Assembly (NCBI GenBank): GCA_000741495.1
Contig: JGZV01000001.1
Location: 496,001 to 560,000, forward strand
DNA: 64,000 bases
Reading direction: 5' to 3'
Origin: Bifidobacterium thermophilum
GTDB lineage: Bacteria; Actinomycetota; Actinomycetes; Actinomycetales; Bifidobacteriaceae
Of the stretch, positions 32,807 through 44,331 are shown piece after piece. The notes beneath the pieces were generated by a model. It had not been told where the DNA came from, did not search any database, and saw only the letters and a list, made by a program, of their open reading frames with translations. The translations under genes were made by a program, and so were the position numbers. Position 1 is the first letter of the stretch; each line of letters starts with the position of its first letter.

Positions 32807-32949
32807 GGATTCTGCCGCGCAATGATTGAAACACTGACATCGTTTTCATTGTGCCACGGGTTGTGCGGACGGTTGCGGCAATCCCGCGCGTGTCCGAAAA
32901 CGTATCATGCACGGCCGCGCCTTCCGACGGTCGTGGTATCTGTGGGGGC

Positions 32950-33627
32950 ATGAGCATCACCGACGCTTCCCCCGCTTCCGTTGAGCCGGCCATGAGCGGC
33001 GGCAACGCGGCAATCGCTGCTGCCAAACGTGCCGCCCGACATGCCGCGCTGGCACGACGCAAGACCGTCACCGCCACAGAATTCACGCAGGCACGGCACG
33101 CGCTGGGCCGGTATGCTGGGCTCCTGTGCCGCGCGCTGCCCGAACATGCCACGGTGGCCGCGTACGCGTCCATGGGGACCGAACCACCGATGGATGACGT
33201 GTTGGCCGACCTGCTTGACGCCGGTATGCGCGTCCTGGTGCCGCGACTGGGACCGGGGGCGGATGACGCTCCGGCGTGGAGTGAGCTGGATGGTCTTGCG
33301 TCACTGCACGATATGCCCCGCAGCGGGACAGGCGGTTTGCGGCCGCGAGAGCCCGGCACCCGAGTCTTGGCGGCGGAAGCGCTCAACGAGGCGGCGCTCA
33401 TCCTGGTGCCCGCCTTCGCCATCGATACGCACGGGATCAGGCTCGGCCGTGGCGCCGGATGGTATGATCGCGCCCTCACGCACGCCTCACCGTCAGCACG
33501 CATCGTCGGCGTATGCTGGCCGTGGGAGTTGACGGATACGCCCGTCCCCCACGTCGGCCATGACGTACCTGTTCACGGTGTCCTCACCCCGGCAGGGCTA
33601 CGCATGATTCGCCCGCTGGGCGCATGA
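32950..33627 (+). CDS. 5-formyltetrahydrofolate cyclo-ligase
   Basis: ATP-dependent conversion of 5-formyl-THF to 5,10-methenyl-THF (one-carbon metabolism). The C-terminal signature VPAFAIDTHGIRLGRGAGWYDRAL and the N-terminal basic ATP-binding start (AAKRAARHAALARRK) identify it. The chosen ATG at 32950 follows GGGGG and gives 225 residues, close to the family norm; the open frame before it lacks similarity. It is followed by the FmdB-like zinc ribbon gene on the same strand. Confidence 0.9.
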   Translation: MSITDASPASVEPAMSGGNAAIAAAKRAARHAALARRKTVTATEFTQARHALGRYAGLLCRALPEHATVAAYASMGTEPPMDDVLADLLDAGMRVLVPRLGPGADDAPAWSELDGLASLHDMPRSGTGGLRPREPGTRVLAAEALNEAALILVPAFAIDTHGIRLGRGAGWYDRALTHASPSARIVGVCWPWELTDTPVPHVGHDVPVHGVLTPAGLRMIRPLGA

Positions 33628-33729
33628 TTCCGGTTCGCGGACCGAGAACATCATCGCTGTCACCGATTCGACTAGGATGTGAACAGATTACGTAACACAC
33701 CGACCTGTCGATTTCGTGGAGGGACCATC

Positions 33730-33918
33730 GTGCCAACCTATCATTACCGTTGCAAGAACTGTGGCTATGATTTCACCGAGCAGCAGTCATTCAGCGACGA
33801 ACCGATCACCGTATGCCCGCAGTGCGGCCAAGAGCAGGTGCACAAGGTCTACGCAGCGCCTTCCATCGAATTCAAAGGCAGCGGCTTCTACCGTACGGAT
33901 CGCGGCAGCTCGAAGTAA
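33730..33918 (+). CDS. FmdB-family zinc ribbon protein
   Basis: 62-residue putative regulatory zinc ribbon. Two CxxC knuckles (YHYRCKNCGYDF and VCPQCGQEQ) and the ending IEFKGSGFYRTDRG are typical. It starts with GTG, preceded by GGAGGG 6 nt upstream; the ATG frame 51 nt upstream is not supported. It commonly lies next to the formyl-THF cyclo-ligase gene in actinobacteria. Confidence 0.92.
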   Translation: MPTYHYRCKNCGYDFTEQQSFSDEPITVCPQCGQEQVHKVYAAPSIEFKGSGFYRTDRGSSK

Positions 33919-33936
33919 CCAGCATCCGTCATTCAC

Positions 33937-33967
33937 GCCCCCCGGAGCCTCAAGGCACGGGGGCTTT
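33937..33967 (+). terminator. Terminator after FmdB-like gene
   Basis: GCCCCC (33937-33942) pairs with GGGGGC (33959-33964), followed by TTT; about 20 nt past the stop codon. Confidence 0.75.
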
Positions 33968-34033
33968 GCCATCTTCTGACCACAATCACCCGCACAGGTG
34001 GCGCCGCCGGACACCACCAGCCATGATGGGCGC

Positions 34034-34759
34034 ATGAGACAACACGAATCATCCTCACCGTCACACCGCCCACATCTTGGTTTGGCGCAACGCCGCCGCA
34101 TCGCAATCATGCGACGCGTGGCACGCACCCTACTCATCGCCATCGCCGTGTTCAGTATCCTGCAATGCGTCACCGCCACCGTCGCCACCCAACCCATGTT
34201 GAGCACCACCGGCAATATCACACGCGGGCAACGGCTGACCGCCAACGACGTGACCGTCATCACCGTGCCGGCGCACACGTCATTCGCCAACGCGCCAACC
34301 GAACCCAAACACATCGAATCCCGCATCGCCCTCGTGGACATGCCGGCCGGCACACTGGTCCTGCCGTCGCACATCCGCGGAACACCAGTCGCCCCGGAAG
34401 GCACCACCGTCATCGAAACACGACTGGCAAGCAGGCCGGAAGGTGTTGACGCCGGCGACGAAATCGACCTGATGATCGGACAGGCGTGCGCCAGCATCAT
34501 GCCCGATACGTCCGACGCGTCGGAAACGCCGGAAACACCGGAATCATCCGAAACACCGGACGGGCAGCATGCGCAAGATACCGCACCAACAACACCGAGC
34601 CGTCAATGCACCATCGCCACGCAAGCGACACTCATCGCCTTCAGCCAGCGCACAGACGGCACCACCGCAGACAGCGCATCCATCGCCATGCGCCCCGAAG
34701 AAGCACTCACCATCATGAGTCTGCCCGACAGCCTGCCGGTCATCGCCACGCGACGGTAA
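34034..34759 (+). CDS. SAF-domain protein, CpaB/RcpC-like
   Basis: 241-residue protein with one N-terminal membrane helix (TLLIAIAVFSILQCVTATVA) and an extracytoplasmic SAF domain (NITRGQRLTANDVTVITVP, ESRIALVDMPAGTLVLPSHI). CpaB-type proteins participate in Flp/Tad pilus secretion in other bacteria, but no tad genes are present here. A Ser/Thr/Glu/Pro linker with repeated SETPET-like units follows in the middle. In bifidobacteria this gene commonly sits beside the cyclo-ligase/FmdB pair. Its true role is unknown. Confidence 0.8.
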   Translation: MRQHESSSPSHRPHLGLAQRRRIAIMRRVARTLLIAIAVFSILQCVTATVATQPMLSTTGNITRGQRLTANDVTVITVPAHTSFANAPTEPKHIESRIALVDMPAGTLVLPSHIRGTPVAPEGTTVIETRLASRPEGVDAGDEIDLMIGQACASIMPDTSDASETPETPESSETPDGQHAQDTAPTTPSRQCTIATQATLIAFSQRTDGTTADSASIAMRPEEALTIMSLPDSLPVIATRR

Positions 34760-34817: not shown

Positions 34818-35027
34818 TCAGTGCCCGCGCTCGCTGAACACCGCCCAATGAGGCGGCAGTTCGCCCAAAATCCGCTGATCGTCATCGGCGGCACGCTGTT
34901 CGGCGGTCAAGGTGTCGGACGGTTCAAGTTTGACACCATCCGCATCAAAACGCTCCGTACCCTGCAACGTCACCCGGTGGTGGCGACGCGGGGTACGACG
35001 ATGCGAATCATACGCGGGCGCCATCAC
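34818..35027 (-). CDS. Small basic protein coupled to the degenerate helicase gene
   Basis: 69 residues, unknown. The first third is rich in Arg and His (RRTPRRHHR), the remainder acidic, ending HWAVFSERGH. Its ATG overlaps the stop of the 1204-codon gene (ATGA, 4 nt shared), a strong sign of genuine translation and of co-expression. No domain was recognised. Position and coupling suggest that it works with the FHA/helicase-like proteins, perhaps as a nucleic-acid or protein adaptor. Confidence 0.7.
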   Translation of the reverse strand: MMAPAYDSHRRTPRRHHRVTLQGTERFDADGVKLEPSDTLTAEQRAADDDQRILGELPPHWAVFSERGH

Positions 35028-38000
35028 GCCTCCCCATACAACGTGCCGATACGGGCGACCATACGGTCCACTTCCTTATCAGGGTTCACGAACGCGGCGA
35101 CGCTCCACACCGTCATCGCCGACCAGCCAAGCCGGGCGAGCTCCTGCGGGAGCAGACGGTGACGTTCACGCGTGGACTGCATACTCATGAACTGCGCGTC
35201 ATCCGTAAGCACGGCAAGCGCAAACGGCTTGCCCTTCGCGCCGACCACCAGCGGAATACGCACACCGTCGCTGAACCCGTAATCCACTGCAACCTCCAGC
35301 CCGCGCGCCTTGACACGCTGGGCGAGATCATTGAACAGCACATTGTCAGCAACCTGAACCGGTGTCGGACGGACAGCCGTCGCGTCAAGCGTCGAAGCCC
35401 ACGACAGCAGCTGCTTGAGCAGACGCGGACCGGACTGGTGCAACCGCTCATCATCCATGTCTTCAGGGCCGAAGGAGGCGACAATATCAAGATTACGGTC
35501 GGCGAGCGCCAACGCGTCAAGCAGCATCCCCTTGCCGCCGTCGCCTTCCAGCGGACCGAACTGCTGAATCAGACGCCCGTGCGTGGTTTTCGCGTAACAC
35601 ATGGAAACGATGACATCCGTCGCTTGCGCACCGGCGACCTCATCAAGGCCGATAAGCCGCACGTGGCGCAGGAAACGCCCCATGGTCTTGTCTTTGGAGG
35701 CGAGCGACTTGAGTTCAGCGCCTAAGCGGGTGCGGAACACTTCAGTCATCGTGACCACGGTGAGCACGTAGGATACGGGGACCACAGTGAAGGATTTCGC
35801 CCGATCACAAATCAGTTTGGTCACGGTTTCGATTTCCTGCTGGCTGCTTTCCACCAGCCCTGAGGAAATGACCGGCACGCCGGTCGCCTCGATCCGATGC
35901 AGACGCACCATGCCTTGCATCCCCTCAGTCGGGACGGCACGGCGAACCGGCCCGTAACCGGCTTCCTGGAGGAACGCGGACAAGCGCGGCGAGCGGCGGG
36001 TCAACCGCGGTCGGGCCTCGACATGCGGCAGCAAGCCGATCAGCGTTTTCACACTCGGCGAGGTCACAGTCGCATCATGCGCGATAATGACGATCTGCCG
36101 GGCGCGGCAGATGATGGACAGCAGTTCAATGGCCGGCATGTGGGCGGCAGCGTCGATAATCGCCACATCCGCCAGCGGCGTGGGGTCAGTCAGCGCGGCG
36201 AGCGTGGACGGGGTCGCCATAAGTACCGGCTTGGCCAAAGCCATGATTTGCGGGTGGTCGCGCAATACGCGTCCCAACGGCGTGTTCGGGCCGCCGGCGA
36301 GCACCGTATGCAGTTGGTTCGCTTCCTGTGTCTTGGAAAACAGCAAGTCGCACAGTTTGCGCAGCGACTCTTGATGAATCATCGGGCCGATTGAACGCAC
36401 ATGCTCGGTATCGACCTGGCTGAACCGGTCCGCAGCCGTTTGCAAGGCGGAACCATCCTGGTTCGAGATGATTGCGGACTGTTTGACGATATCCTCGAAT
36501 ACGGTCGTCCACCACGACAGCTGGAGTTCACCCTCCACCGCTTCAACCGACACGTGGCGGGCACGCAGATCATCAACCAGCTCATCCAAACCGACCGACT
36601 TGAATTCCTGTTCAAGCACGCATCGTCCAGGCAGCGTGTCCAACGCCATATGGTCGTTATACAGGGCTTTGAGACGCTCTTCCAGCGTGTTGAAATCGAG
36701 GGATTCAAGATTGCCGCCCTTGGGTGTCGTGGCAAGCACCGCGTCCAAGGACGTGATATTACGCATCAGGGCGTCCTGCGTTTCGAGAATCGTGTCCAGT
36801 TTCGGCGGCAGGACAGGCCATCCGCCGTGAGGCACGAACAGATGCCACTGCTCGGACTGCTTGGCGACTACAACCAGCGCATCATGCAGATTCTCGACTT
36901 GTGCGCCCACGCGAAGCAGGCCCTTGGCTTCTTTGACCAGCCGGCGACGCTCCCAGAACCCCAGATCGGAGCCTTCTGACTTGCGTTGCTGCTTCGACTT
37001 GCTGGCCTCGATCATCGAATCGATGTCGCGTTCGAAAATCTCCGGCTGGAACACGTCAAGCACGCGGCGCAGATTCTTGAGCACGGTGACCTGCCGACCC
37101 CACTCCTGAGCGGTGGTGGGGACCGGGAACCCGCAAGTCTGCACGGTGGTCGCAACCTGCTCGCGGGTTGCAGGCAGCAGCTTCTGCATCAAATCGACCA
37201 CACGCTGGTACGCGTTGACAGCCTGCTCTTCAGTGGTCAGCGACGCCTGATACCACGCGGTATCATCCGGGCCGACGGTGTATTCACCGAGCTCGCCTGC
37301 GGCACGCAGCTTGTTCGCCCACTCATCCATATGCCCGTTCAACGTGCGGGCCGCGGTGTCGCTCAATCGCACGTGAGTGGCGGGATGGGTAGGCAAGGTC
37401 GCGATACTGGCGAGATTCTGGATGGTCTGGTACGCGGACACGCCCCAACGCTCGTTGATACCGTGCAAATCGCCCAAATAGCGGGTCAGGCGTGAACGCA
37501 CGCCGACCAGTTCGTCAGACAACTGATCGAAGCGGCTTGACGCATTGCCCGCCCGATAGCCGACCGCGGCGATCAGCTGCTTGTCAATCGCAAGATTGCC
37601 CTGCTCATCGGCAATATCAAGCACCAAATCACCAATGACATTACTGCCCATGATTTTGGTAAACCGGCGCTTCTGCTCGGCCACGCACGGCACATACAGC
37701 ACCGAACGACCGTTCATGATGCAACGCGAGGCGATGGCCGCAGCCTGCGCCGCACTGCCGTTGCCGACTTCACTATCCAACACGATGGAATGCCCTGCGG
37801 CAACAACATTCGCGGCATACCGCACGGTGTTGTCCACATCGCCAACCTCGTATTCGGCATGCGGGTCGCCATCGAAGGGACTGTATTCGGGAATCTTGTC
37901 GGATTCGATATCGTGAATCGCCTGGGCATCGCCGGCGAGCGCATCAAGCATGGTGTTACCGGTCGGCCCCTTGCGCAACGCGTCGATAATCCGCTGGCTT

Positions 38001-38638
38001 TCCAGCAGAATCTGCGCGCTCGGATCCATGAAACAGCCGACGATGATGTACCGGTCAATATCGAAATCGGCGAACGCCCGGCGTGCCTGCTTCTCAATCG
38101 CCGCGAACACGGCGGATGTTTCCGGCGTGCCATTGTCGTAGTTCGAACCGTCAAACAGCTCGTCTTCATCAAGATTGACGCCCTGATCATGCAATTCGGT
38201 CACAAACGCGGGGTTGAGTCTGCCACGTCCGGTGAATTTGATCGTGGCGTCGGTTTCACCGCCGCCCGGCTTACGGGTCACGTCCACCGGGTACAGCAGG
38301 ACAGGCACGGATTTGCCGGACCACGTGGCCACGCCGACAACCATGGACAGTTCCGCGACGCCACTGATCCGGCTTTTCGCGGTCTGATCCTCGTACACGC
38401 GTTCCAGGCGACGCCCGGCGGCACGCAACATGCCAGTGTCGCGGAACAGGGAATCGAGCGGCGCTTTGCCGCTGGCGAACAGCTGGGCGATACCCGACGG
38501 GTGGGCATGGGTCAAGTCAAGTTGGGCGGACAACTGGCTGATATCTTCAAGCGGAGACGGTGCCAGCGAATTACGGTAGTCGTCCCGCCAACGCCGCATC
38601 TGGCGCAGCGCCTGATCGGATTGGGTGAATTCGCTCAT
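35024..38638 (-). CDS. Catalytically degenerate SF1 helicase/Vsr-like nuclease protein
   Basis: 1204 residues with the layout of large DNA2/Upf1-type helicases carrying a C-terminal Vsr-like nuclease, but the active sites are eroded. The region equivalent to Walker A reads DSEVGNGSAAQAA (G292-S295), lacking GKT/S. The Walker B/DEAx equivalent reads VAIIDAAAHMPAIEL (D829), lacking the glutamate. The C-terminal Vsr-like segment (~1120-1195; IPLVVGAKGKPFALAVL then TDDAQ...RLLPQELARLGW) lacks the IExDG glutamate. The reading frame itself is intact, so it is probably a maintained non-enzymatic scaffold. It begins 8 nt after the FHA gene's last stop and overlaps the 69-codon gene. Confidence 0.75.
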   Translation of the reverse strand: MSEFTQSDQALRQMRRWRDDYRNSLAPSPLEDISQLSAQLDLTHAHPSGIAQLFASGKAPLDSLFRDTGMLRAAGRRLERVYEDQTAKSRISGVAELSMVVGVATWSGKSVPVLLYPVDVTRKPGGGETDATIKFTGRGRLNPAFVTELHDQGVNLDEDELFDGSNYDNGTPETSAVFAAIEKQARRAFADFDIDRYIIVGCFMDPSAQILLESQRIIDALRKGPTGNTMLDALAGDAQAIHDIESDKIPEYSPFDGDPHAEYEVGDVDNTVRYAANVVAAGHSIVLDSEVGNGSAAQAAAIASRCIMNGRSVLYVPCVAEQKRRFTKIMGSNVIGDLVLDIADEQGNLAIDKQLIAAVGYRAGNASSRFDQLSDELVGVRSRLTRYLGDLHGINERWGVSAYQTIQNLASIATLPTHPATHVRLSDTAARTLNGHMDEWANKLRAAGELGEYTVGPDDTAWYQASLTTEEQAVNAYQRVVDLMQKLLPATREQVATTVQTCGFPVPTTAQEWGRQVTVLKNLRRVLDVFQPEIFERDIDSMIEASKSKQQRKSEGSDLGFWERRRLVKEAKGLLRVGAQVENLHDALVVVAKQSEQWHLFVPHGGWPVLPPKLDTILETQDALMRNITSLDAVLATTPKGGNLESLDFNTLEERLKALYNDHMALDTLPGRCVLEQEFKSVGLDELVDDLRARHVSVEAVEGELQLSWWTTVFEDIVKQSAIISNQDGSALQTAADRFSQVDTEHVRSIGPMIHQESLRKLCDLLFSKTQEANQLHTVLAGGPNTPLGRVLRDHPQIMALAKPVLMATPSTLAALTDPTPLADVAIIDAAAHMPAIELLSIICRARQIVIIAHDATVTSPSVKTLIGLLPHVEARPRLTRRSPRLSAFLQEAGYGPVRRAVPTEGMQGMVRLHRIEATGVPVISSGLVESSQQEIETVTKLICDRAKSFTVVPVSYVLTVVTMTEVFRTRLGAELKSLASKDKTMGRFLRHVRLIGLDEVAGAQATDVIVSMCYAKTTHGRLIQQFGPLEGDGGKGMLLDALALADRNLDIVASFGPEDMDDERLHQSGPRLLKQLLSWASTLDATAVRPTPVQVADNVLFNDLAQRVKARGLEVAVDYGFSDGVRIPLVVGAKGKPFALAVLTDDAQFMSMQSTRERHRLLPQELARLGWSAMTVWSVAAFVNPDKEVDRMVARIGTLYGEA

Positions 38639-38645
38639 CCTCGAC

Positions 38646-39265
38646 TCACTTTCCTACCGCTTTGCGGTATTCCTGATAGCCCTGATTGTGCGCGAGCGCC
38701 GCATCGACATCAGCATTCCCCTGTGCGGCAAGCCATGCGTACAGGTCATCGTACAGCGTGGGGTTCATCGCAAGGAACGGCAACAGTTGGGCGTGTCGCG
38801 CAATCTGGAACTGATCAGTGTAGTCGGTGGTGGTTTTCGCTTGCGCCGCAGTGAAACCGCCGACTTCGATCTGTGGTTCTTTATGGTCGAAATCGCCGCG
38901 GGAAACACGGTCGAACACCGAGCCGGGTTCGAACACCGGCTTGAACGGGGTCTGCTGGGGTTGGGCGGATTGCTGGGATTGCAGGGATTGCTGGGCGTCC
39001 GAGCCTGAACGGCGGGGGTTGAGCCGGCGGCTGCCGTCTGGGTCGCCGAGGCCGGATCGGAGCTCACCGGGCGGGCGAAACGGCTGTAATCCTGGCCATT
39101 TGGCAACTGATCAGGCTGAACGATGACGGGATTGGATTGTGGGGCAGGCTGCACCGGCTGGGCCGGCTGGGCAGTGCGGCCGGATTGCGGCATGGCACCG
39201 AACAAGTCGTGAACCGACACGACGGAATCGTCGCGGTGTGCGGGTTCGCTCGGCTTGACGGGGGG
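38646..39265 (-). pseudogene. Displaced 3' part of the FHA gene (linker plus LRV-like domain)
   Basis: The FHA frame ends at 39111, but coherent protein sequence continues in the -1-shifted frame ([18 protein letters not shown]) from a G6 tract at 39260-39265, and then returns to the original frame at a G5 tract at 39014-39018. It runs on as QTPFKPVFEPGSVFDRVSRG to a stop at 38646. The last ~70 residues (LLPFLAMNPTLYDDLYAWLA, then DVDAALAHN) match an LRV-type repeat domain. Removing one G from the first tract and adding one to the second restores a continuous ~662-codon gene. Confidence 0.7.
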
Positions 39266-40634
39266 TGACGGGCTCTGCCGACGCATCGGATGGCGCGGAA
39301 TCAGCGGATGGTGCAGGGTGCTGCACCGGCAGCACGGGCTGCGGTGATTGAGCCGGTTCAGCAGCCTGTGCGGGCTGGGTTGGCTGCACAGGCTGTGCCG
39401 GTTGGACAGACTGTGCTGGTTGGACAGGCCGTGCTGGTTGGACAGGCTGCTCGGGCTGGACAGGCTGAGCGTCCGCAGCCGACTGGACCGGCTGGGCATT
39501 CCTGGCGCGCAACTGCTCCTGACGCTCGGTTTCCTCACGCTGGGCGCGCTCCTGACGCTGGAGCTCGGCCTCCTGCTCACGCTTGAGCTGCTGCTCACGC
39601 AACTGTTCCAGCTCCTTGCTGTGCTCTTCGGCATCGGCGAACAAGTCACGTGGACCGGTCTCAACCGGCGTCCCCGGCTGGACAACCAGCGGAAGCTCCT
39701 GAATCGGATGCTCTTGGGCGAATTGACGCTGCTGGGTTGCCGTCACCACGGCATCAGGCAGCACGGCCGCAGCAAACGGTTGCGGCCGCATCTCAACGGC
39801 GGGTTCAACAGTCGCAGTTGGTTGGGCAGGCTCGACAGTCTGGGTAGGCTGGGCTGACGCGGCTTGCTGAACGACCGGCTGCATCGGTGTCGCCGGCTGC
39901 GTAGGCTGAGCGCTCGCCGGCTGCGTAGTCGTATGCTGGGCTACAGGGACAGTATCCTGCGGTTCCGCTGGAGTACGAGTATGCGTATCTGACGGCTGGG
40001 CTTGCTGATCAGGCTGGGATCCCTCACCGGCCGGCTGCGGCTCGTCCGCCGCCGGTTCCGTTCCCGCGAGCCGCGGTACCTGCAAGGACGCATCACGCAG
40101 CTGGCGAAGACGATCAGCCACATTCTGCGAGCTGAACATTGCCGTCGGCTCGCCCGCACGCAAGTTCAGAATATCGTCAACGGACATGTCAGCCGGATCA
40201 GGCTCCTGCTTGGCACCATCACGCGCGTACGCGAACAGGTCGGTCACTTCCGGTTCGGTATGCTCCAGCGCTTCAACGCGAATGAAATCAACGGGTACGT
40301 CGCCGAATTGCAGACGAATCGGCGAATACGGGAGCTGAAAATCGACTTCGGCTTGCAGACGCGTCAACTCGCCGTTCTCGTGAACCATATATGAGCCGTT
40401 CGTGGAATTGAGGTCGCGAATGTCGGCCGTGCCGTCATCGTGTACGGTAAGCAGGGCGTGGCGCTTCGACATGGAACGCCCTTCATCAACGATTTCAAAA
40501 CGACGATGACCATCATCGGCGAGCGGGCGAAGGGGTTTGCGCCCGATTTCCAGGCTTTCTCCCGGCTTGATATCCATCTGCTCGGCGCCATTGACCTTGA
40601 TGATCCACTGCTGCCCGGATCGCTGCTCCGTCAC
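39111..40634 (-). CDS. FHA-domain protein with Pro/Gln-rich linker (truncated by frameshift)
   Basis: Phosphothreonine-binding adaptor. The FHA domain occupies ~24-90: [24 protein letters not shown], and [11 protein letters not shown] contain the key Gly-Arg, Ser-x-x-His and Asn-Gly residues. A ~350-residue linker rich in Gln, Pro and Ala follows, with QPxQP-type repeats and a short charged coiled coil (~345-385). As sequenced, the frame ends after an atypical Arg-rich tail, because a G6 tract at 39260-39265 throws it out of frame. FHA proteins usually read Ser/Thr kinase signalling, often at septation or secretion sites. It is the first gene of the operon with the degenerate helicase. Confidence 0.8.
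39355..39480. repeat. Tandem-like repeats encoding QPVQPAQ units
   Basis: Imperfect units built on ggttggacaggc and ggctggacaggctg recur across this stretch, encoding the Pro-Val-Gln-Pro-Ala repeats of the FHA protein linker. Such repeats are prone to length change. Confidence 0.7.
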
Positions 40635-40884: not shown

Positions 40885-40928
40885 AACAAACGACCCCGAC
40901 CGCCCACGCGGGGACAATCGGGGTCGTT
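40885..40928 (-). terminator. Intrinsic terminator of rplJ-rplL
   Basis: AACGACCCCGA (40889-40899) and TCGGGGTCGTT (40918-40928) form an 11-bp stem, followed by UUUGUUUU on the minus strand. Confidence 0.92.
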
Positions 40929-42277: not shown

Positions 42278-42997
42278 CTACCGGCCATATTGTCTAAGCT
42301 TCTTGTCAAGAATCGCAAGGATGATGCCCCCGTATTCCGGCCACTGAGGCGACATCAGAATACGCTGTTTCTCCTTTTCGAGCTCGTTCCGGGTCTTTGC
42401 CGATCCGCCATGGCACCGAGCGAGAAGCCTTTGCAAATACTCACTGATGTAGCTCTTCCTGTTGGCGACGAGCCGCCGCTCATTCAGATTCAACACCGCG
42501 ATATCCGCCTCGGCATCATCATCGCCATCGGCACCACACATATACCCAGACGCTTGACGATAGGAAATCCTCCGCCTGCATTCTTCTTCCGCCGGGTCGA
42601 CGTGCAACTCGATATTCTTCCGCTTCTTGTCGCAACATTGCTCGCCATCACCGGTAGCACCGTCACAGCATGCGAACATATTGCGGTAATCAATCGACAG
42701 CCTGTCATCTTCCTTGGCAGCCTGCGGATCATGTTTTCCCCGTTCGCTATGGCGAGGATGCCAATGCTCGATATGCGCCCGGGAGCCGCTTCCGCTTCCC
42801 CTGGAGTGGATTCTACGCTCGCAATATACGCACAACCTGTGCTGTTTCTCGGTCAAATCCTCAAGTAGAGGCGGCTTGATTTCAGGCGGCAAGTGGTCAT
42901 AGTCCTGCGGAGTGTCAGGCGTCACCTTCATTATTCCGACGGCCTCCACGTATGCGTTTGGCGCCCCGCCCGTTTTATCCACATACAGCATAATCAT
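42278..42997 (-). CDS. ptuB: PtuB-like HNH endonuclease (TIGR02646-type), Septu-like system
   Basis: 239-residue predicted nuclease. The zinc/HNH elements occur in the order expected for TIGR02646/PtuB: CVYCERRI, AHIEHWHPR (the catalytic His region), NMFACCDG and CCDKKR. It overlaps the ATPase gene by 4 nt (ATGA), so the two are made together. PtuA-PtuB pairs are anti-phage modules found alone (Septu) or as effectors of retron Ec78-type systems; no reverse transcriptase or msr-msd is seen here, so this is the stand-alone form. It sits between rplJ and the pilus operon, an accessory insertion. Confidence 0.75.
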   Translation of the reverse strand: MIMLYVDKTGGAPNAYVEAVGIMKVTPDTPQDYDHLPPEIKPPLLEDLTEKQHRLCVYCERRIHSRGSGSGSRAHIEHWHPRHSERGKHDPQAAKEDDRLSIDYRNMFACCDGATGDGEQCCDKKRKNIELHVDPAEEECRRRISYRQASGYMCGADGDDDAEADIAVLNLNERRLVANRKSYISEYLQRLLARCHGGSAKTRNELEKEKQRILMSPQWPEYGGIILAILDKKLRQYGR

Positions 42998-44331
42998 TCG
43001 CCGCCCAGTGTCATGAAGTCATACGCGGCACGTTCCCGAGCCAGTTCAGCGTCATCCGGGCCAATCAGGGATTCAAGTTCATCCAACAGCGTCTTGGCCT
43101 GACCATATGCCGAATCGTCAAGCGCTTGCTCCAACCGCTTGAACATGTTCCTGACCTCGCCGGGACGGTCGTGGGCGCCCATGACATGGGTGAGGACGTC
43201 GTTCGAGCTGCTGCCTGCCACATGCCCCTGATATGGCCGCCCACCTGTCTCGTCGATGATACGCAGGCAGGATGAGTCCTTCACCGAGGAAAGTACCAGA
43301 GGCGCATGGCTCGTGACTATGAACTGTACTTTCGGGAAGGTTTCCGTCAGCACTTCAAGAATGTGTTCTTGCCATTTCGGGTGCAGGTGAAGATCGACCT
43401 CGTCGATGAGCACGACACCGGGGGTGCGGGACACCACTTGCTCACCCAACGCCGGATTCAGCATCGCCATGCGGAAGGCGATATCGCCGACCATGCTCAT
43501 GACACTACGGTAGCCATCGCTCAACATGCCGATCGGCAACTCGGTGACACCGTCATTATGACGGTAGGTCACGATGATCTGCCCTAGGTCAACCGAATAC
43601 TCGACATCGATCGCTTCCGCGTCTTCGTCCTGCAAGTGGGCGACACAGCTTGCCATCGCCTTACGGACCGCAATATACAGCGGACTTTCCTTTTTGCGGG
43701 CCGCACTTTGCAACGCCATACGCATGAACCAGTACCTCATGAGGTTGTCATTCGTGTATGCGTCCAGGCAGTCGATATACCCGTTCAGTCTTGATACGCC
43801 GCCACTGAAATCACGGTCGTACACGTACGCGCTGGTTTTCTTGTGCGTCCAGACGCGCCCGGTCCCGTAATATCCGAGCATCGGCAGAATCAGGCTCTCA
43901 TCATGCGATTGGACGCGTTGCTGGCATTCATCCGCATACGCGTTGATTTCCTTGCAATCGCCTTTGCCTGCGTGCCCTGTTGAAAGGATTTGCCTCGCCC
44001 ACATCATCTCGGGCGCCCCGCCGTGCGGCAAGTCGTCACGATAGCCATAGGCAGTGACGCGGACGGGATATTGCCGCTCAGTCTGGACCTGATCGCCTTG
44101 CAGGAAAGATACTCTGCGGACATCGGTGTCCTTGTTGAACTTGCGTGAATGGTTCTTACCTTTGGAGTCCGGCAACCTGATGAGGAACGCCCCGAGAGCG
44201 ATGGCCGCGGCGTCGAGAATCGCCGATTTGCCTGCACCGTTATTGCCGATGAGTACGGTCATGCTGGGGTCAAAAGCGATGTGGGCATCTTCGAAGGACC
44301 GAAAGTTCTGTAGTTCAAGCGAGCTTAGCAT
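42994..44331 (-). CDS. ptuA: PtuA-like AAA/ABC-type ATPase, Septu-like system
   Basis: 445-residue RecF/OLD-like ATPase. LELQNFRSFEDAHIAFDP and Walker A LIGNNGAGKSA (29-36) open the protein, LSDGYRSVMSMVGDI is the ABC-signature region, VVLIDEVDLHLHPKWQ is Walker B, and FIVTSHAPLVLSSV the H-loop. This architecture, paired with a TIGR02646 HNH protein, is that of Septu PtuA. The ATG at 44331 follows AAGGAG by 5 nt. It is inferred to sense infection and license the HNH nuclease. Confidence 0.75.
   Translation of the reverse strand: MLSSLELQNFRSFEDAHIAFDPSMTVLIGNNGAGKSAILDAAAIALGAFLIRLPDSKGKNHSRKFNKDTDVRRVSFLQGDQVQTERQYPVRVTAYGYRDDLPHGGAPEMMWARQILSTGHAGKGDCKEINAYADECQQRVQSHDESLILPMLGYYGTGRVWTHKKTSAYVYDRDFSGGVSRLNGYIDCLDAYTNDNLMRYWFMRMALQSAARKKESPLYIAVRKAMASCVAHLQDEDAEAIDVEYSVDLGQIIVTYRHNDGVTELPIGMLSDGYRSVMSMVGDIAFRMAMLNPALGEQVVSRTPGVVLIDEVDLHLHPKWQEHILEVLTETFPKVQFIVTSHAPLVLSSVKDSSCLRIIDETGGRPYQGHVAGSSSNDVLTHVMGAHDRPGEVRNMFKRLEQALDDSAYGQAKTLLDELESLIGPDDAELARERAAYDFMTLGGE

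Follow-up and report, generated by a model that had tools for sequence, protein, structure and literature searches.

A 64,000-nucleotide (nt) stretch of the Bifidobacterium thermophilum genome (contig JGZV01000001.1, positions 496,001 to 560,000; hereafter the window) carries a three-gene operon whose central member, a protein of 1204 amino acids (aa), resembles a helicase-nuclease that has lost its catalytic residues. Coordinates are those of the window, and features lie on the (-) strand unless stated otherwise. The first gene (38646..40634) encodes an FHA-linker-LRV_2 adaptor of ~663 codons when intact, which is interrupted in the window, where a 507-aa open reading frame (ORF) occupies 39111-40634. 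The second (35024..38638), recognized from the ORF list, Pfam, a motif alignment and an AlphaFold2 (AF2) model, encodes the 1204-aa pseudohelicase-pseudonuclease. The third (34818..35027) overlaps the stop codon of the second and encodes a small protein of 68-69 aa (a 69-aa ORF in the window), named PPHW here after its terminal motif. A preliminary description, made from the window's letters, had reported a tight operon with an 8-nt gap and an ATGA overlap. The operon is real, but the gap between the first two genes is 7 nt (38645-38639) and the second and third overlap by TGATG (1 nt) or GTGA (4 nt), the ATGA junction being found in many relatives and not in the window. An intrinsic terminator-like hairpin after rplL (40889..40928) separates the operon from the ribosomal genes, which suggests that the three genes form a unit of their own. 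No published description of this operon was found in the open-licence literature.

The 1204-aa protein is predicted to have an SF1B helicase fold. The AF2 model of residues 105-1204, built from an input alignment of 63 sequences, reached a predicted local distance difference test score (pLDDT) of 89 and a predicted template modelling score (pTM) of 0.76. Its best PDB matches were Upf1, Ighmbp2, Dna2 and Sen1 (Z ~15-17), with Aquarius also matched, and sequence-profile searches of the PDB returned the same families. Within the Upf1-like fold (residues 203-1086, 35381..38032, from the model and its structure matches), two RecA-like domains are placed as in Upf1 and Ighmbp2, the Upf1 match having a Z of 16.9 over 401 residues. 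Only ~400 of the 1100 model residues align with SF1B structures, so that a long helical insertion, modelled between the halves of RecA domain 1 (residues ~347-799, 36242..37600), is not covered by them. The sole Pfam match in the protein is a C-terminal MTES_1575 restriction endonuclease (REase) domain of Vsr type (PF18741; 44.9 bits against a curated cut-off of 38.2, E=1.3e-11), placed by Pfam and alignment at residues 1104-1197 (35048..35329). The helicase plus Vsr-like nuclease organisation proposed in the preliminary description is thus borne out by Pfam and the model, and the outcome that would have contradicted it, a model with no helicase fold, did not arise from either structure prediction or profile search. 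Upf1, Ighmbp2, Sen1 and Dna2 share the helicase-core fold but, unlike the bifidobacterial protein, are active enzymes.

The residues on which such enzymes depend are changed at every catalytic site. Alignment places the degenerate Walker A position at 37745..37771 (EVGNGSAAQ, or more widely SEVGNGSAAQ) and the degenerate Walker B position at 36140..36160 (IIDAAAH), while the window protein has P and L at the D and E positions of the nuclease. These changes, already read at the same positions in the preliminary description, are common to the family: the P-loop GxxxxGK[ST] is found in 0 of 67 distinct Bifidobacteriaceae proteins, the Walker B DE likewise in 0/67, and motifs I, II, III (GD..Q), IV (R), V (Q) and VI (R) are all degraded together. 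Because they are common to all 67 distinct family orthologues, the apparent motif losses exceed chance by far. Conservation within the family is distributed differently, with the P-loop scoring 0.53 (among the lowest), the helical-insertion segment 0.80 and the dead nuclease 0.76 (the highest), and the best-conserved region is residues 465-584, inside the helical insertion. One alternative is that the protein still catalyses a reaction in an unorthodox way, through another mode of nucleotide binding or a nuclease site that has been rebuilt. The residue that took the place of the nuclease D is conserved as well (proline in 65/65 Bifidobacteriaceae proteins parsed), which implies a pocket under constraint, but the joint degradation of motifs I-VI makes such activity very improbable.

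The gene for this protein is kept with great regularity. An orthologue is present in 101/101 genomes of the genus, in 159 of 161 good genomes of the family, including reduced genomes of 0.8 Mb, and in 231/233 good genomes of the order (E<=1e-3; paralogues possibly included). In Bifidobacteriaceae pairs the ratio of nonsynonymous to synonymous substitution rates (dN/dS) of the helicase gene is 0.03-0.11, indicating purifying selection. That the gene is decaying on its way out might be argued from the loss of all catalytic motifs and from two frameshifts in the FHA gene of the window, but for the helicase gene decay is refuted by the dN/dS values, by its presence in all genus genomes and in reduced genomes, and by the age of the loss, so that this explanation is scarcely credible. 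A single decayed allele or pseudogene is ruled out by the presence in 101/101 genomes, the 0/67 P-loops, the dN/dS values and the ancient, shared loss. Homologues with intact Walker motifs, which the preliminary description had taken as a sign of a single decayed allele, do exist, but the loss is ancient and shared. Its proposal of a maintained pseudo-enzyme stands, in view of the P-loop absent in 67/67, the modelled helicase fold and an invariable order of the three genes, the FHA gene lying before the helicase gene at 72/72 bifidobacterial loci and the small gene after it in 67/67.

Comparison with known systems identifies the kin of the protein. PDC-S37, Hhe and ProA (NF042953, NF058533) likewise combine an SF1B helicase with an MTES_1575/Vsr-type nuclease, and the intact relatives have a DUF4011-type N-terminus. 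The PADLOC profile PDC-S37 matched the window protein with E=1.4e-59 and an intact orthologue with E=9e-249, and Hhe was also matched; the NCBIfam ProA and Hhe matches fell far under their curated cut-offs (183.7/1500 and 62/2000 bits). On sequence, the family is placed as a descendant of PDC-S37/Hhe-type helicase-nucleases, candidate anti-phage proteins. Unlike them, the bifidobacterial protein is shorter, has lost the motor and nuclease residues, is encoded by a vertical core gene, and has PPHW and FHA partners. The MTES_1575 architecture described earlier (SF1 helicase, Vsr-type REase, winged helix-turn-helix/DUF3320 and HEPN; PMC3710099) contains the same REase family plus a helicase, but Pfam detected no HEPN, transglutaminase or DUF3320 module in the bifidobacterial protein. 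These relationships bear on the alternative that the protein serves phage defence without catalysis of its own, as a sensor of phage DNA or protein that signals via the FHA protein. Its kin are indeed candidate or described anti-phage proteins, namely PDC-S37, Hhe and ProA. Such a role is nevertheless improbable for a gene that, unlike the scattered intact relatives, is near-universal, mostly single-copy and vertically inherited, and that sits in conserved housekeeping synteny.

The ancestry of the motif losses was followed across GTDB families, coded f1 to f39 (f1 is Bifidobacteriaceae and f35 is class-level), with loci coded by L-numbers. Intact proteins, with P-loop, DEASQ, motifs III-VI and the nuclease acids, occur in f4, part of f17, f33 and f39. 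Intact orthologues were found in the Dermatophilaceae-type genera Knoellia, Pedococcus and Flexivirga, these names coming from a GTDB scan plus tree placement; the scan used the patterns GTGKSQTI and LFVAEKRA, which bias the sample to intact relatives. Both motor and nuclease residues are lost in f1, f3, f8, f9, f13 and f20. In a 63-row tree built without the motif columns, each multi-member GTDB family came out as a single clade (18 groups explained by 17 changes, the fewest possible), so that inheritance looks vertical. When the tree was rooted with intact outgroups, parsimony placed four losses of the P-loop (minimum 4 changes). Three of these fall in f25 plus f35, in L133 plus L135, and in L131, with a K-to-R change of the P-loop seen in f25 and f35; the fourth, deep loss maps to the ancestor of f1, f2, f3, f5, f6, f8, f9, f11, f13, f15, f19 and f20. 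The trees are quick trees with Shimodaira-Hasegawa-like approximate likelihood ratio test (SH-aLRT) support only. On this reconstruction, the P-loop was lost before at least 12 of the order's families diverged, and the bifidobacterial protein would have lost its ATPase site first and its nuclease site later.

The small PPHW protein has a conserved tail with acidic residues that ends in PPHW (or PPHF/PPHY). Its gene follows the helicase gene in 67/67 distinct Bifidobacteriaceae loci and in most families of the order. Elsewhere the tail is part of the helicase itself, forming its C-terminus in f9, most of f13 and part of f5, f15 and f17; such fusions occur at L092, L094, L095, L097, L099, L117, L123, L127, L128, L132 and L164, and argue that both parts work together. 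No PPHW gene turned up in the stretch of up to 900 nt read downstream of the scattered intact relatives that lie outside the order, and none was found in f20. The PPHW protein is a deeper and better-supported partner of the pseudohelicase than the FHA protein. At L147, an f35 locus with the K-to-R P-loop, an ORF with a PPHW tail lies downstream, while the other three f35 loci sampled are without it. In f20 (L101, L239, L240, L241) the pseudohelicase gene lies close to, or points away from, a cluster of MoxR, DUF58 and large membrane protein genes that recalls part of the bifidobacterial PFNA cluster (kinase Pkb2, FN3), and at L239 an LRV_2 protein is encoded nearby. The PFNA cluster itself was rejected as a match to the operon, being a different locus.

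The FHA protein is a further presumed partner in Bifidobacteriaceae, its gene lying immediately upstream of the helicase gene at all 72 loci, a count that includes two loci missed by a regular expression and confirmed by eye. When intact, it consists of the FHA domain, a long linker rich in Pro and Gln in which xDLFxxA motifs recur, and LRV_2. The FHA domain (residues 30-88, 40371..40547; PF00498, 30.4 bits against a cut-off of 20.7) was identified by Pfam and alignment and has the phosphothreonine-binding motifs IGR, SMSKxH and STNGxY, whose GR, SxxH and NG residues are conserved across the family. The LRV_2 domain (PF25591), identified by Pfam at the C-terminus (38685..38852), scored 47.7 bits against a cut-off of 27 in L035, and the window copy is also above the cut-off. 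In the linker (window ~39600-40300), the repeated xDLFxYA and PRDLFADA motifs, in an otherwise poorly conserved region, are candidate docking motifs. In the window, the ORF that starts at 40634 meets an in-frame stop at 39113-39111 after 507 aa. Comparison with L002, a 99% identical orthologue, revealed a C-run of 6 C in place of 5 (39260..39265), which causes a +1 frameshift, and a compensating 1-nt deletion of one C (39002..39004, the site being approximate, ~39003); after both indels the frame is restored and runs to a TGA at 38648-38646. At all other bifidobacterial loci examined the gene is one open frame, so the break in the window is a sequencing or assembly slip or a strain mutation. 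The canonical FHA domain had been correctly recognized from the sequence, but the two indels that break the gene in the window, and the C-terminal LRV_2 domain, had been overlooked. Five Ser/Thr kinase matches were found in the window genome, in which LRV_2 may be a marker of phospho-signalling. At L155 (G000 contig C3, ~156.7-159.9 kb), a double LRV_2 protein has as neighbours a second FHA protein and an ORF that resembles a PP2C phosphatase on inspection by eye and has no Pfam match.

Taken at slightly better than even odds (a probability of about 0.55), the 1204-aa protein is an ancient pseudohelicase, a vertical descendant of a DUF4011-SF1B-Vsr-type enzyme of the PDC-S37/Hhe kind, that has been kept as a binding platform. 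A motor-dead platform is probably how it works, this being the mechanism best supported by analogy with AddB/RecC and Deinococcus PriA. In Deinococcus radiodurans, a PriA pseudohelicase with lineage-wide Walker loss has DnaB as its partner, and its DNA binding has been measured (PMC4504706). It resembles the present case as a kept helicase with lineage-wide Walker loss, and the K-to-R change occurs here too, in f25 and f35, but it belongs to a different helicase family. In AddB and RecC, inactivated SF1 domains are kept as a recognition module in complex with an active motor (PMC4824097); they share an SF1 fold with lost motifs but sit with an active motor, a kind of partner that is not known for the bifidobacterial protein. 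This precedent also underlies a competing explanation, in which the protein is an inactive, AddB- or RecC-like subunit of a complex for DNA-break processing or recombination, with the active helicase-nuclease encoded elsewhere. Although the inactivated AddB/RecC domains are the clearest precedent, reading Chi through an old single-stranded DNA track (PMC4824097), and although the fold is SF1 and AddAB appears low in the Foldseek list, the structural match to AddAB is weak (TM ~0.11, probability 0.51) and AddAB is absent from the VIA-align matches listed, although it may still be kin. Moreover, no recombination gene is conserved beside the helicase gene, and the near relatives are Hhe/PDC-S37 rather than AddB, making such a subunit an unlikely candidate.

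As analogous inactivated helicases suggest, a platform of this kind would still bind a nucleic acid or protein ligand through the groove of the helicase and the conserved helical insertion. The PPHW protein would bind the pseudohelicase or link it to a partner that both share. The FHA-LRV_2 adaptor of Bifidobacteriaceae may recruit the pseudohelicase to a threonine-phosphorylated protein, or release it from one; this phospho-control is plausible, with physical coupling of the FHA protein and the helicase proposed from gene order only. That a Ser/Thr kinase governs the scaffold, perhaps at DNA, the septum or a secretion site, is a conjecture of the preliminary description. Several observations weigh against the platform and its proposed partners. 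The putative loss of catalysis is read from residues alone. Outside bifidobacteria, motor-less proteins may still act as nucleases, since f5, f6, f15 and part of f11 largely retain the nuclease acids despite having lost the P-loop lysine. An AF2 model of the natural fusion L092 left the PPHW tail unplaced (tail pLDDT ~32-49). Finally, no FHA gene was seen directly upstream of the helicase gene in the other families sampled; since it adjoins the helicase gene only in Bifidobacteriaceae, phospho-control is unlikely to be the ancestral role. The FHA protein as ancestral partner is thus unsupported, and its phospho-control looks like a later addition.

Parts of the operon's surroundings recur across the order. 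Downstream mscL, FmdB-like and 5-formyltetrahydrofolate cyclo-ligase genes recur across families, including families with an intact helicase, and in the window SAF-domain and 5-formyltetrahydrofolate cyclo-ligase genes (32851-34759, (+) strand) represent order-wide synteny kept downstream of the operon. On the other side, beside rplJ/rplL, a Septu anti-phage pair is encoded by overlapping ATPase and HNH genes (42278-44331), which gave matches to PtuA (E=1.4e-126) and to PtuB (E=3.3e-40).

A fuller history is offered tentatively, with the odds somewhat against it: an anti-phage-type helicase-nuclease may have been domesticated near the base of Actinomycetales, with at least four motor losses, into a core scaffold with an acidic PPHW docking protein, and may have been wired in Bifidobacteriaceae, through the FHA-LRV protein, into Ser/Thr phospho-signalling. 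Defence genes are usually seen as mobile and short-lived, while here one defence-type lineage has apparently become a core gene of a large order, and software that searches genomes for defence systems can take such core genes for one. The graded series from intact proteins through motor-dead proteins with nuclease residues to fully dead ones is a natural experiment on the change from enzyme to scaffold, and the three-gene operon offers testable partners in cultivable, genetically tractable bifidobacteria.

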